In this document: positions 2,648-7,358 of the stretch, in pieces
How positions within the stretch are numbered: the stretch's first letter is position 1
How the letters are laid out: every line of letters begins with the position of its first letter
NCBI GenBank assembly: GCA_019748195.1
Contig: JAIEPW010000016.1
Coordinates: forward strand, 124,001-188,000
Direction: 5' to 3'
DNA: 64,000 nucleotides
From: Bryobacteraceae bacterium
GTDB taxonomy: Bacteria; Acidobacteriota; Terriglobia; Bryobacterales; Bryobacteraceae
Translations under genes and position numbers: made by a program
Notes under the pieces: model-generated
The model's database searches: none
What the model was told of the DNA's origin: nothing
Seen by the model: the letters and a program-made list of their open reading frames with translations, nothing else

Positions 2648-3094
2648 ATGCCGCTACTGGAACGGATTCAGAAAGACATGGTGGAAGCCATGAAGGCCAA
2701 GGACGAAATGCGCCTGGGCACGGTTCGCATGGTGAAGACCGCCCTGCAGAAGTATCAGGTGGATTCGATGAAAGCGTTGGATGAAGAAAGCGAGCTGAAA
2801 GTGTTGTCGTCGTTGCTGAAGCAGAGACGGGAAGCGGCCGAGATGTTCCGGCAGGGCGGGCGTGAGGAGCTTGCCGTGAAGGAGGAAGCCGAAGCCGCGC
2901 TGATCCAGACTTACATGCCGGAGGCGCCCAGCGAGGCGGAGATCGCCGCCGCTGTGGAGGCCGCGATGACGGAAACCGGCGCCAGCTCCGCCAAGGACAT
3001 GGGCAAGGTGATCGCGGCGGCGCGGGGGAAGCTGACGGGCAAAAGGATTGACGGCAAGGTGTTGAGCGATGCGGTGAAAAGCCGGCTTGCTTAG
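2648..3094 (+). CDS. yqeY: GatB/YqeY domain-containing protein
   Basis: The product is 148 residues if translation starts at the ATG at 2648 (MPLLERIQKDMVEAMKAKD), which matches the usual YqeY N-terminus; another ATG lies three codons upstream. The whole length fits the YqeY family: an N-terminal helical half with the LRLGTVRMVKTALQ segment, then the C-terminal helical domain (YMPEAPSEAEI, DMGKVIAAARGKLTGKRIDGKVLSDAVK). That C-terminal domain resembles the tRNA-binding tail of GatB and GatE. The family is often associated with tRNA-dependent amidation, but its biochemical role is not settled. The gene lies immediately upstream of the ilv leader region and reads in the same direction. Confidence 0.9.
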   Translation: MPLLERIQKDMVEAMKAKDEMRLGTVRMVKTALQKYQVDSMKALDEESELKVLSSLLKQRREAAEMFRQGGREELAVKEEAEAALIQTYMPEAPSEAEIAAAVEAAMTETGASSAKDMGKVIAAARGKLTGKRIDGKVLSDAVKSRLA

Positions 3095-3132
3095 GGAATG
3101 CTCGCATAAGCGCTTTTAATGCGGTTGCCCTC

Positions 3133-3161
3133 TTGCATTTGCCGGACTTCTGCCTTACTCT
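3133..3161 (+). promoter_or_regulatory. Candidate promoter of the ilv leader
   Basis: TTGCAT (3133-3138) and TACTCT (3156-3161) are separated by 17 bases and lie 15 bases before the leader-peptide ATG. The matches to a sigma-70 consensus are modest. The placement, between the yqeY stop and the leader peptide, is what supports the call. Confidence 0.4.
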
Positions 3162-3176
3162 AGAACCCAAGAAGCG

Positions 3177-3269
3177 ATGTCTCTGGTCCAACCCAACCCG
3201 GTAAATCGACTTGAGGCTCTTCTGCTATCCGTTCGGATTATTGGGGTAGTAATCGCTCACCCCGCCTGA
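3177..3269 (+). CDS. ilv operon leader peptide (attenuator peptide)
   Basis: A 30-codon ORF, too short for usual gene calling, starts with ATG at 3177 and ends with TGA at 3267-3269. It contains 13 branched-chain residues, and the core LLLSVRIIGVVI has 9 Leu/Ile/Val in 12 codons. The preceding AAGAAG is a weak ribosome-binding site. The ORF sits between yqeY and ilvB, and its last codons lie inside the hairpin region described in the next entry. A peptide with this composition, in front of acetolactate synthase and a terminator hairpin, is the hallmark of ribosome-mediated attenuation by Leu/Ile/Val-tRNA charging. The peptide itself is probably of no function after translation. Confidence 0.85.
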   Translation: MSLVQPNPVNRLEALLLSVRIIGVVIAHPA

Positions 3270-3338
3270 ACGGACCAAAGATCTTAAACGAACTTGGCCA
3301 CTGGCGGGGAACCAAACCCGCCAGTGGCCATTTTCGTT
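3228..3338 (+). promoter_or_regulatory. Transcription attenuator of ilvBNC (pause hairpin, antiterminator, terminator)
   Basis: The terminator is a perfect 14-bp stem (3295-3308 with 3317-3330, loop GAACCAAA) followed by TTTTCGTT. The 5' arm of this stem (GGCGGGG, 3303-3309) is also complementary to CCCCGCC at 3260-3266, at the end of the leader ORF. TTGG (3294-3297) can pair with CCAA (3275-3278) inside that, giving an antiterminator that excludes the terminator. A third structure pairs 3228-3234 with 3268-3274 (TCCGTTC/GAACGGA) and 3243-3247 with 3259-3263, and would sequester the antiterminator strand. A ribosome stalled on the Leu/Ile/Val codons would free 3260-3278 to form the antiterminator. 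This is the classical four-segment attenuator logic. The pairings are seen in the sequence; the mechanism is inferred. Confidence 0.82.
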
Positions 3339-3408
3339 GCGTTTCTGAAGAAAACAGGTGGCCCGACATCGAATGAATGACAAGACAGGACATTTCAGGG
3401 GTGAAGTG

Positions 3409-5121
3409 ATGAACGGCGCTCGGATGTTGCTGGAGTGCCTGGCGCGGGAGCAGGTGGATTGCATTTTCGGCTATCCGGGCGGGGTCACTTTACCCTTTTA
3501 TGACGCGATGTACGATCATCCGATCCGCCACGTTCTGGTGCGGCATGAGCAGAACGCGGCGTTCGCGGCTTCGGGATACGCGCGGGCGACGGGCAGGGTA
3601 GGGGTGTGCTGCGCGACTTCGGGTCCGGGCGCGACCAACCTGGTGACGGGGCTGGTGGACTCGCTGATGGATTCCATTCCGGTGGTGGCGATCACCGGGC
3701 AGGTGGCGACGCGGCTGATCGGGTCCGACGCCTTCCAGGAAGCGGATACATTCGGCATCACCCGGAGCTGCACGAAGCACAATTATCTGGTGAAAAACCT
3801 GGCGGACTTGCCGCAGATCGTGCACGAGGCGTTTCACATCGCGAGCTCGGGCAGGCCGGGTCCGGTGCTGGTGGACATCGCCAAGGACGTTTTCCAGGGG
3901 CAGGGAAGGTACGAGCCGGTGAGCGCGATTCATCTGCCCGGCTACAAGGTGGTGGTGGACGGTCACGCGGGGCAGGTCCGGCGGGCGGCGCAGATGATGT
4001 GGGAGGCCGAGCGTCCGCTGGTGTACGCGGGCGGCGGGATCATCGCGGCGGCGGCGCACGAGGAACTGCGGGAGCTGGTGGAGGCGCTGGACGCCCCGGC
4101 GGTGTGCACGCTGATGGGCCTGGGCGGCCTGTCGAGCGGGCATCCCAACTTCATTTCGATGCCGGGGATGCACGGCAGCTACGCGGCTAACATGGCGATG
4201 ACGGAAACGGACCTGCTGATCGCGCTGGGCGTGCGGTTTGATGACCGTGTCACGGGTCGTCTGAGCGCGTTTGCGCCGAAGGCTCGCGTGATACACGTGG
4301 ATATCGATCCGGCGGAGATCGGCAAGAACCGCGCGGCGGACATACCGATCGTGGGCGATGTGAAACGGGTATTGAAGCGGCTGACCCAATCGCTGGCCGA
4401 GACCAAGGACGAGATGAGAGCCGCGGGCGGGGCGGCGCGGAAGGCCTGGAAGCGGCAGGTGCGGGGCTGGATGGAAGAGCATCCGCTGACTCCGGAGGTT
4501 TCGGCGGATGAGATCAAGCCGCAGCATCTGATGGCGGAGATCGACCGTCTGTCGGGGGGAGAGGCGATCGTAACGGTGGATGTCGGGCAGCACCAGATGT
4601 GGGCGGCGCAGTTCATCCGGTTCCATCATCCGCGGCTGTGGATCAACTCCGGAGGTCTGGGCGCCATGGGCTTCGGCCTGCCGAGCGCCATGGGAGCGCA
4701 ATTCGCTCATCCGGACCGGCTGGTGTTTTCGATCGTGGGGGATGGGGGATTTCAGATGTCGGTGCCCGAGCTAGCGACCATCGTGAATCACGGCCTGCCG
4801 CTGAAGATCATCATCATGAACAACGGCTACCTGGGAATGGTGCGGCAGTGGCAGGAGCTGTTTTACAACAACCGGCTGAGCTCGGTGCAACTGGACAACT
4901 TCCCGGACGCGGCGCTGTTGGCGGCCGCGTACGGATTTCGGGGGCGGACGATTGAGCACCCGCGGGAGCTCGCGCCGGCGCTGGAGGAATGCATCCAGGA
5001 GCCTGGTCCGTACCTGTTGAACGTGCGGGTGACGCCGTTTGAGAACGTGTATCCGATGGTTCCCGCCGGCGCGGCGATCCATGAGATGGTGCTGCGTCCG
5101 CCGCAGCCGGTGGAGGCGTAG
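3409..5121 (+). CDS. ilvB: Acetolactate synthase (AHAS) large, catalytic subunit
   Basis: The 570-residue ThDP-dependent enzyme condenses two pyruvates to acetolactate, or pyruvate with 2-ketobutyrate to acetohydroxybutyrate. This is the first common step of Val/Leu/Ile synthesis. The start at 3409 (MNGARMLLECLARE) follows an AGGGG ribosome-binding site and gives the usual family length; in-frame starts at 3358 (GTG) and 3373 exist. Glu47, in VRHEQNAAFAASG, is the conserved ThDP-activating glutamate. The three-domain order is clear: Pyr domain, central FAD domain (about residues 190-330) and PP domain. The PP domain carries the ThDP/Mg motif GDGGFQMS...NNGYLGMVRQW. It opens the ilvBNC operon behind an attenuator. 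Confidence 0.97.
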   Translation: MNGARMLLECLAREQVDCIFGYPGGVTLPFYDAMYDHPIRHVLVRHEQNAAFAASGYARATGRVGVCCATSGPGATNLVTGLVDSLMDSIPVVAITGQVATRLIGSDAFQEADTFGITRSCTKHNYLVKNLADLPQIVHEAFHIASSGRPGPVLVDIAKDVFQGQGRYEPVSAIHLPGYKVVVDGHAGQVRRAAQMMWEAERPLVYAGGGIIAAAAHEELRELVEALDAPAVCTLMGLGGLSSGHPNFISMPGMHGSYAANMAMTETDLLIALGVRFDDRVTGRLSAFAPKARVIHVDIDPAEIGKNRAADIPIVGDVKRVLKRLTQSLAETKDEMRAAGGAARKAWKRQVRGWMEEHPLTPEVSADEIKPQHLMAEIDRLSGGEAIVTVDVGQHQMWAAQFIRFHHPRLWINSGGLGAMGFGLPSAMGAQFAHPDRLVFSIVGDGGFQMSVPELATIVNHGLPLKIIIMNNGYLGMVRQWQELFYNNRLSSVQLDNFPDAALLAAAYGFRGRTIEHPRELAPALEECIQEPGPYLLNVRVTPFENVYPMVPAGAAIHEMVLRPPQPVEA

Positions 5122-5124
5122 GCC

Positions 5125-5673
5125 ATGATGCAACTGATTTCCCTGTTGATGGAGAACAAGCCGGGCGCGCTGATGCGGGTGACGGGCCTGCTTACCGCGC
5201 GCGGATACAACATTGAGAGCCTGACGGTGGCGCGCACGACGGACCCGGCGCTTTCACGCATGAGCATCCTGGTGGATGTCGAGCCGCACCAGAAGGCGCT
5301 GGTGATCAAGCAGATGAGCCGGCTGGTGAACGTACTGCAGGCGGCCGATCTGAGCGAGGCTCCGGCGGCGCGGAGGGAGCTGTTGCTGGCGCGCATCAAG
5401 GCCCCGTTGCCGAACCGCGCGGCGATTCTGAAGGAAGCTGAAATTTTCGGCGCGCGCGCCATTGACTCCTCGCCCGAGGGGTTTGTGCTGGAGGTGACCA
5501 GCGAGGGCGAGAAGCTGGACGAGTTCATCGAAATTCTGGGACATTACGGCGAGCTGGAAGTGACGCGTTCGGGCATGGTGGCGGTGCCGCTGGAACCCAA
5601 GAAGCTGAAGCTTTCCCGGCCTCGCGAAGTGGGCCCGGCGCTGGAAACCGAACCCGCGGGAGCGAACAGATAA
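5125..5673 (+). CDS. ilvN: Acetolactate synthase small, regulatory subunit
   Basis: The 182-residue protein begins with an ACT domain (LMENKPGALMRVTGLLTARGYNIESLTVART), the valine-binding module that gives feedback inhibition of AHAS. A C-terminal regulatory domain follows (RAAILKEAEIFGARAIDSSPEGFVLEVTSEGEKLDEFIEIL). It starts three bases after the ilvB stop and ends directly against the ilvC start, so the subunits are almost certainly co-translated. The C-terminal tail is longer and more basic than in short IlvH proteins. Confidence 0.96.
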   Translation: MMQLISLLMENKPGALMRVTGLLTARGYNIESLTVARTTDPALSRMSILVDVEPHQKALVIKQMSRLVNVLQAADLSEAPAARRELLLARIKAPLPNRAAILKEAEIFGARAIDSSPEGFVLEVTSEGEKLDEFIEILGHYGELEVTRSGMVAVPLEPKKLKLSRPREVGPALETEPAGANR

Positions 5674-6702
5674 ATGGCAAGACGTTTCTACGAAAAAGAC
5701 GGCGATCCGAGCCGGCTCGAAGGCCGGACGGTGGCGATTATCGGCTACGGCAGCCAGGGTCACGCGCACGCGCTGAATCTGCGGGATTCCGGCGTGAAGG
5801 TGGTTGTGGGCCTGTACCCGGGGTCGGGCAGCCGGGCGAAGGCCGAAGCCGAGGGCTTGCTTGTGATGAGCACCGCGGATGCCGCCGCCGCGGCAGACGT
5901 GGTGATGATCCTGGTGGCGGATCACATTCAGGCGGACCTGTACCGCCGCGACATCGAGCCGGAACTGACGCCGGGCAAGACGCTGATGTTCGCGCACGGC
6001 TTCAACATTCATTTCGGCGAGATCGCCGCGCCGGAGGGCGTCGACGTCAGCATGGTGGCGCCGAAAGCGCCGGGGCACCGGGTGCGGGAATTGTTCACCG
6101 AGGGAGTGGGCGTGCCGGCGCTGGTGGCGGTGCACCAGGACGCGAGCGGGCAGGCGCTGGCGAATGCGCTGGCGTATGCGCTGGCGCTGGGATGCCTGAA
6201 GGCGGGCGTGATCGAAACCAGCTTCCGGGAGGAGACCGAGAGCGACCTGTTCGGCGAGCAGGCGGTGCTTTGCGGCGGCGTCAGCCGGCTGATTCAAGCC
6301 GGCTTCGAGACTCTGGTGGAGGCGGGCTACGATCCCGAAATCGCCTACTTCGAGTGCCTGCACGAATTGAAGCTGATTGTCGATCTTATACAGGAAGGCG
6401 GCCTGGGCTACATGCGCTACTCGATTTCCGACACGGCGGAGTACGGCGATTACTCGCGGGGCTCGCGCGTGGTGACGGACGAGACCAAGGGCGAGATGAA
6501 GAAGATCCTGGGCGAGATCCAGTCGGGCGCCTTCGCCCGCGAGTGGATGGCCGAGAATCGCAGCGGCCGGAAGCGGTTTCTGGCGATGCGGGAGGCGGGC
6601 CACCATCATCCCATCGAGCGGGTGGGGGCGGAATTGCGCGAGATGATGACGTTCCTCAAGAAACGGAAGGAAGCCGGCGTTCCCGCCGGCGGCGCGAGGT
6701 AA
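5674..6702 (+). CDS. ilvC: Ketol-acid reductoisomerase (NADP+)
   Basis: At 342 residues this is a class I (short) ketol-acid reductoisomerase, which isomerises and reduces acetolactate to dihydroxyisovalerate. The Rossmann motif [17 protein letters not shown] lies at about residues 25-41. The Mg-binding and catalytic acids are in the C-terminal knotted domain ([16 protein letters not shown], then [12 protein letters not shown]). ATG follows the ilvN stop without a gap. The last residues ([12 protein letters not shown]) form a non-conserved tail. Confidence 0.97.
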
Positions 6703-6707
6703 CTACG

Positions 6708-7358
6708 ATGACCAACCAATATCCAGCCGATCCCGATGTGCAAGTTCTGTACCGTCTGCATCCCACCGGAGCGCAGCATTTGGCCGACCTGCTCGATGCC
6801 CGTGCGCGGCGCGAGTTGCGGGACCTGATCCAGCACCTGGAGCGCGAAGGGTACGACCTGACGCAGGCCGACGGTACGCTGGAGCTGATGGTCCGCGAGG
6901 CGCTGAGCCCCGGCGTGCGCTTCTTCGAGATCACGCATTTCGAGGTTTCGACGCGCATGACCGGATCGCGGCAGACGGAGAGCCGCGCCGAGGTCGCGGT
7001 GGCGATTCAGGATCAGGCCTACCGCGCCGAAGCCGAGGTGAAGGGCGGCGCGATCAACGCGCTGGATGTAGCCTTGCGCAAGTGTCTCGCGGGACGCTAC
7101 CCGGCGATCGCGAATGTGAAGCTCACCGATTACCGGGTGCGCATTCTGGATGCTCGCGAGGGCACGGCCGCGCGCGCCGAGGTATTGATCGGTTGGGCCG
7201 ACGGCAAGCGCCGCTGGGTGACGGCGGGTGTGTCGGACAACGTGGTTCACGCGAGCTGGCTGGCGCTGGTGGATGCGATGAAACTGGAGCTGATCCGGTT
7301 GGCGGAACACGACGCGACGGTGGAGCGCGTGGTGGAGGAGTACTGCTGGGGCGTCTGA
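6708..7358 (+). CDS. Free-standing citramalate/isopropylmalate synthase regulatory domain
   Basis: The 216-residue product corresponds to the C-terminal part of (R)-citramalate synthase (CimA type) without the catalytic TIM barrel. The linker helix region (LRDLIQHLEREGYDLTQADG, residues 36-55) is followed by LMVREALSPGVRFFEITHFEV. The LeuA allosteric (dimerisation) domain then carries AINALDVALRKCL, LTDYRVRILDAREGTAA and VTAGVSDNVVHASWLALVDAM. In CimA and LeuA this domain binds Ile or Leu and inhibits the synthase in trans-subunit fashion. It starts 5 bases after ilvC and is the last gene of the operon. No catalytic leuA/cimA gene is in the window. It could act in trans on a separate synthase or sense an amino acid by itself; neither is proven. 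Confidence 0.85.
   Translation: MTNQYPADPDVQVLYRLHPTGAQHLADLLDARARRELRDLIQHLEREGYDLTQADGTLELMVREALSPGVRFFEITHFEVSTRMTGSRQTESRAEVAVAIQDQAYRAEAEVKGGAINALDVALRKCLAGRYPAIANVKLTDYRVRILDAREGTAARAEVLIGWADGKRRWVTAGVSDNVVHASWLALVDAMKLELIRLAEHDATVERVVEEYCWGV

Follow-up and report, generated by a model that had tools for sequence, protein, structure and literature searches.

In the enteric ilvGMEDA and ilvBN operons, a leader peptide rich in Leu, Val and Ile precedes an antiterminator and a terminator that share one strand, and attenuators are expected to use rare control codons. The attenuator of the Corynebacterium glutamicum ilvBNC operon is read from a leaderless transcript whose start lies a single base away from the start codon of the leader (PMC11857589), and the corresponding motif, ilvB-II, has been published as confined to Corynebacterium (PMC11857589, PMC10272879). 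Candidate ilvB leaders, consisting of short ORFs with runs of Ile, Val and Leu plus a terminator, have been listed for Mycobacterium, Streptomyces and Corynebacterium, and substitution of leader codons in S. coelicolor had no effect (PMC1262725). A broad survey also listed acidobacterial attenuators, with almost no associated functions (PMC2965389).

The element described here precedes ilvBNC in a 64,000-nucleotide stretch of DNA (the window) from a soil bacterium of the Bryobacteraceae. With the C. glutamicum attenuator and ilvB-II it shares the operon, a leader rich in branched-chain amino acid (BCAA) codons and a three-hairpin logic (PMC11857589, PMC10272879), and the C. glutamicum control codons CUU and GUA are codons over-used here (PMC11857589); the likeness to ilvB-II is one of description, and a cmscan search of Rfam, a library that may lack ilvB-II, gave no match. 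The two differ in leader length, 15 codons in C. glutamicum against 30 here, a number variable in relatives, and in that the C. glutamicum attenuator has been tested by mutation whereas ours is predicted from sequence. The enteric attenuators have in common with it the BCAA-rich leader and the shared strand, but differ in operon order, sequences and leader; set against them, the antiterminator strand here coincides with the leader's final seven coding bases. In the actinobacterial candidates the ORFs overlap the terminator hairpins, and how regulation is brought about was left open there (PMC1262725), whereas here all elements are present and covary. The ilvB-OMG and Leptospira ilvB motifs, likewise proposed attenuators with a BCAA-rich upstream ORF before ilvB, belong to other lineages and are threonine-rich too, and their likeness to the present element may not be one of descent (PMC10272879). 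The first-pass annotation of the window knew of no established case in this phylum, and no earlier description of an ilvB attenuator in Acidobacteria was found in the literature searched, an absence that is not proof because coverage was incomplete, most subscription journals lying outside the search. The mechanism is thus a familiar one, and the lineage apparently undescribed before.

Results

The leader region of ilvBNC

The leader region (3095-3409) was inspected base by base in the sequence (Table 1). The Pfam domains encoded downstream assign to the ilvBNC products the synthesis of Val, Ile and Leu, the same amino acids for which codons are clustered in the short predicted leader ORF, and the 30-codon leader with nine branched-chain codons among the 12 of its core, as annotated at first pass, was confirmed to the base.

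Table 1. Features of the ilvBNC leader region and its neighbours (window coordinates).
Feature	Position	Strand	Basis or remark
yqeY	ends 3094	+ (ilv strand)	gene preceding the ilv leader
Conserved A/T-rich imperfect dyad, consensus ATNA-N6-TTNAT, ~12 bases 5' of TTGCAT	3106..3120	+	comparison, 89 loci
Putative ilv promoter, TTGCAT (3133-3138), 17-nt spacer, TACTCT (3156-3161)	3133..3161	+	comparative inference
Predicted leader peptide ORF MSLVQPNPVNRLEALLLSVRIIGVVIAHPA*, 30 codons	3177..3269	+	ATG 3177, TGA 3267-3269; BCAA frame bias across 102 leaders
Control codons CTT CTG CTA TCC GTT CGG ATT ATT GGG GTA GTA ATC = LLLSVRIIGVVI	3219..3254	+	BCAA-rich positions and codon bias in relatives
Upstream (protector, 1:2) hairpin, 3228-3236 with 3266-3274, inner stem 3242-3247 with 3259-3264	3228..3274	+	folding
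Region 2, antiterminator 5' strand CCCCGCC, last 7 coding bases of leader	3260..3266	+	folding and covariation
Antiterminator helper stem CCAA/UUGG, 3275-3278 with 3294-3297	3275..3297	+	fold in window; stem signal in 102 loci
Intrinsic terminator hairpin, 14 bp, 8-nt loop	3295..3330	+	followed by U-tract UUUUCGUU (3331-3338)
Region 3, GGCGGGG, common to antiterminator and terminator 5' arm	3303..3309	+	folding and covariation
ilvB, acetolactate synthase large subunit	3409..5121	+	ATG 3409; Pfam TPP_enzyme_N/M/C
ilvN/ilvH, acetolactate synthase small subunit	5125..5673	+	ALS_ss_C, ACT_AHAS_ss
ilvC, ketol-acid reductoisomerase	5674..6702	+	KARI_N, KARI_C

Between the leader and the first gene lies an intrinsic terminator of -33.6 kcal/mol (z -8.0 against dinucleotide shuffles), whose 14 base pairs were those annotated and whose U-tract (UUUUCGUU) is present but modest and short, a point that counts against the attenuator reading. 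The proposed antiterminator also folds as claimed: its two strands, CCCCGCC and GGCGGGG, are exactly complementary, and in RNA cut before the terminator 3' arm the segment 3255-3315 reaches -22.1 kcal/mol (z -4.0) with the helper stem included. The antiterminator shares a strand with the terminator, excludes it and covaries. As for the upstream hairpin (-22.4 kcal/mol, z -3.2), the pairing 3228-3234/3268-3274 first put forward is real and has been refined by the addition of the inner stem, which directly sequesters the antiterminator strand; the window thus has this protector hairpin, and among relatives it is statistically supported yet variable. Nearly right, finally, was the statement that the leader ends exactly inside the antiterminator strand, since that strand comprises the last seven coding bases, just before the stop. 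The arrangement of folds is not due to chance, because it is found again in more than 100 related genomes.

Following ilvC on the same strand (6705-7358), the window encodes a stand-alone LeuA_dimer (PF08502) protein, in a slot that in four relatives (L317-L320) holds a full-length citramalate-synthase-like protein of ~530 aa; relative to these, the catalytic part is missing from the predicted product in the window. The sole HMGL-like gene found in the genome encodes a LeuA of ~390 aa (contig 116, L315), which itself stops short of the C-terminal domain. No leader with terminator was seen at leuA (L315) or ilvD (L316) of this genome.

Occurrence among Bryobacterales

Of 150 genomes searched in the order, 138 contained IlvB, and the comparison drew on 130 upstream regions. 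An automatic rule, demanding at least seven Leu, Ile or Val in the last 24 codons and, 15-45 bases beyond the stop, a U-tract hairpin below -20 kcal/mol, picked 103 loci, one of which was dropped for a wrongly chosen reading frame; leader plus terminator thus stand at 102 of the 130 loci, 94 of them in the window's own family. Relaxing the U-tract rule there added 11 loci with leader and hairpin and three with a leader, for totals of 105 of 111 untruncated loci with leader and hairpin and 108 of 111 with at least a leader, so that what had been taken as a single case is refined to a family-wide occurrence (~105-108/111); only L031, L051 and L065 have no recognisable element, and L093 is truncated.

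The second family of the order (17 loci, L120-L136) has leader ends of the form ...SPG/PGPG; the full set is present in seven, and the terminator is undetected in ten. Most loci without the full set keep leader-like ends such as PVAVACPG* with no detected U-tract terminator, and these terminator-less leaders are possibly a degenerated or Rho-type version. The acidobacterial origin suggested at first pass is upheld by the closest records, which are Bryobacterales and Acidobacteria MAGs and among which an Acidobacteriia MAG (L234) has the same attenuator. A Bryobacterales MAG (L233) is without it; there, a promoter-like block (CTTGCATAAAAATAACTTCTAGGCTACGG) precedes ilvB and no leader plus terminator is visible at 640-1010, an apparent loss or replacement of the attenuator.

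Conservation of the reading frame and of RNA pairing

Alignment of the region with its relatives, the check suggested together with the original annotation, revealed conserved leader codons and stems with compensatory changes. In the 102 leaders, the fraction of Leu, Ile and Val at codons -4 to -16 from the stop is 0.62 in frame versus 0.21 and 0.04 in the other frames; BCAA codons are concentrated at -5 to -17 and seldom occur at -1 to -4. The description of a Leu/Ile/Val leader is borne out with the refinement that the control codons of the relatives are chiefly Val and Ile (450 Val, 285 Ile, 93 Leu). The stop keeps its place but varies in type (TGA/TAG/TAA, 83/14/5), and the leader is accordingly conserved as a predicted protein-coding frame. 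Compared with ilvB at the same 30 loci, leaders reverse the usage of the gene by strongly favouring otherwise rare codons, with GTA at 49% versus 6%, GTG at 5% versus 43%, ATT at 70% versus 20% and CTT at 39% versus 8%.

Of the peptide sequence itself, little is conserved beyond the identity of its BCAA residues and an end that follows the RNA pairing. Its terminal ...GPA* varies to SPG, VPV, GLA or APA with pairing retained; a conserved GPA end serving as a peptide signal was considered and rejected since it changes jointly with its RNA pairing partner, and we take it to be kept as RNA rather than as peptide because the residues change while the pairing persists.

In the alignment of the 102 sequences, the terminator pairs in 86% of cells as against 28-58% in slid controls, with 90 double-change cells versus 36 in shuffles. 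For the antiterminator, plain MAFFT columns give 83% paired (slid versions, 44-64%), an undercount because one subgroup is shifted by one base; a register shift of up to two bases was therefore allowed, in the permuted control likewise. With this freedom, 660 of 714 possible pairs form versus 613.8 +/- 3.6 after leader ends have been exchanged between loci, and none of 5000 permutations reached 660, the permutations ignoring relatedness. Set against that disregard, the compensating changes are varied: CCTCGCC/GGCGAGG, CCCCGTC/GACGGGG and GCCCGCC/GGCGGGC occur, as does CCCCGGC/GCCGGGG in the second family. In 95% of the 102 loci, the inner stem that lies between the stop of the leader and the base of the terminator exceeds its shuffled counterparts in strength, and upstream pairing of region 2 stands at 0.59 in relatives versus 0.44 after codon shuffling.

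A promoter-like block upstream of the leader

In 89 of 130 loci the leader has before it a block of the form TTGCATTT-N6-CTTnT-N4-TAnnCT; these loci were chosen by their TTGCATTT-like and TA..CT boxes, so that the conservation of those columns stems partly from the choice and that of the other columns does not. Among these other columns are those of the dyad, conserved at -27/-26 (AT) in 99%, -24 (A) in 89%, -16 (T) in 97% and -14/-13 (AT) in 100% of the 89 loci, and for which a regulator site or UP-like element is a possible candidate role. The promoter core is single in its own genome even with one mismatch allowed, and the dyad plus TTGCATNT occurs once in 5.8 Mb. A generic sigma-70 scan of the window region found no promoter, hence the comparative nature of the assignment. 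Between the -10-like box and the first in-frame start codon lie 8 bases in the median and 15 in the window, which leads us to expect a leaderless or nearly leaderless transcript, and the leader is probably translated from such an mRNA, in keeping with the C. glutamicum case (PMC11857589). A transcription start downstream of 3269 had been named as an outcome that would undo the annotation; no conserved promoter-like block was seen other than the one 5' of the leader, where the start would be placed.

Ribosome position and the choice of fold

Base-pair probabilities of the RNA 3' of the ribosome were calculated for a ribosome placed in turn with its A site on every codon of the leader, assuming a footprint of 12 nt 3' of the A site. 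Under this assumption, the mean antiterminator probability is 0.00 while the A site occupies codons 0 to -4, 0.19 at -5, 0.66 at -6 and ~0.9 at -7 to -11, the window following the mean at these positions. By this calculation, and given the footprint assumed, a stall with the A site at codon -6/-7 or farther 5' frees the antiterminator, whereas it is lost once the ribosome stands at the stop. Since BCAA codons lie mainly at -5 to -17 and seldom at -1 to -4, the control run closely fits the computed stall window. One misfit is the most conserved Val codon, that at -5 (GTA in 78/102), where stalling scarcely frees the antiterminator. Without a ribosome and before synthesis of the terminator 3' arm, the equilibrium antiterminator probability averages 0.63, is 1.0 in the window, and often beats the upstream hairpin; low basal read-through would thus have to depend on the upstream hairpin folding first.

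Distribution beyond the order

Similar predicted arrangements occur in several other acidobacterial families, as judged from a sample of ilvB-bearing genomes across the phylum. Leader plus terminator stand directly upstream of ilvB at L141, L149, L151, L197 and L200 and, in weaker form, at L152; leader-like runs with no called terminator are present at L146, L188 and L199; at L219 and L222 the arrangement lies farther upstream, its link to the ilvB operon being only putative. A further sampled family of the same class, represented by 18 genomes, showed no such arrangement immediately before ilvB, a negative that covers only this region because several of the 18 have another gene (an ilvD-like end) before ilvB. 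The RNA model R1 matched one element in the own genome, its other matches (its reverse strand, hairpins near other ORFs) scoring at most 23 bits, and it transfers poorly to other families, which makes it a poor phylum-wide probe. In yet another acidobacterial family, a leader-like ORF (SAGVVFGFVGVVVLVVRPTG*) with a terminator was seen at L220 (reverse strand, ~1500-1611), ahead of a gene that by eye resembles prephenate dehydratase.

Discussion

The anatomy of the element and its conservation, together with covariation, the constraint on the coding frame and the computed dependence on ribosome position, argue that the ilvBNC operon is controlled by a ribosome-mediated transcription attenuator of the classical kind, a reading to which we assign a probability of about 0.92. 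The original proposal that the position of the ribosome decides the fold is supported.

That the hairpin should be the plain terminator of yqeY and the short ORF a product of chance would accord with the position of that gene, which has the same orientation and ends at 3094, and of the hairpin, which precedes ilvB; among the relatives, however, the promoter-like block, leader, stop and terminator stay in register with one another, only one frame is enriched in BCAA codons and the antiterminator covaries, comparative data that speak strongly against this view and leave it very improbable. Slighter still is the chance of a metabolite or tRNA sensor (a T-box, a ppGpp riboswitch or another riboswitch) acting without a translated leader. 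A ppGpp riboswitch does control ilvB in some bacteria (PMC10272879), but cmscan against Rfam returned no T-box, riboswitch or other curated leader of this pathway, with neither a family at its curated score nor a plausible match up to E = 5, and what is conserved resembles a reading frame, its codons skewed and its stop codons interchangeable.

Somewhat less remote, though still improbable, is that the element works partly by another route, with the peptide acting in trans, or with ribosome release feeding Rho- or translation-linked control, the terminator being one output among several. Trans-acting leader peptides are known, as in the case of peTrpL (PMC7298713), and members of the second family combine leader-like ends (..PVAVACPG*) with no detected terminator; against this stands the poor conservation of the peptide beyond BCAA identity and its pairing-linked end.

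Under the attenuator reading, transcription would start ~10 bases 5' of the leader start codon and a ribosome would load at once onto the all but leaderless mRNA. A shortage of charged Val-, Ile- or Leu-tRNA would stall the ribosome in the control run (3219-3254), leaving region 2 free to pair with region 3, aided by the helper stem; the terminator would be blocked and RNA polymerase would continue into ilvBNC. With all three amino acids plentiful, the ribosome would instead reach the stop (3267-3269) and cover region 2, the 14-bp terminator would fold and the transcript would end near 3338. Were no ribosome present, the upstream hairpin would form first and hold 3259-3264, again permitting termination. 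The model thus predicts the start site, actual termination or read-through and a response of the operon when amino acids run short.

A bolder proposal, which we advance only tentatively, is that of a lineage-specific cassette independent of actinobacterial and enteric origins and nearly universal in Bryobacterales, in which a dedicated promoter with its A/T dyad and a near-leaderless, immediately translated leader of rare codons would couple a putative regulator with the sensing of BCAA-tRNA, converging on the GUA and CUU codons of C. glutamicum.

These findings supply a class of acidobacterial attenuators with a function and suggest that near-leaderless ilv attenuators reach beyond Corynebacterium. 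They also make available more than 100 natural variants with which the co-tuning of leader codons, ribosome footprint and antiterminator could be tested, and they imply that many of the short ORFs before ilvB in these genomes deserve annotation as leader peptides.
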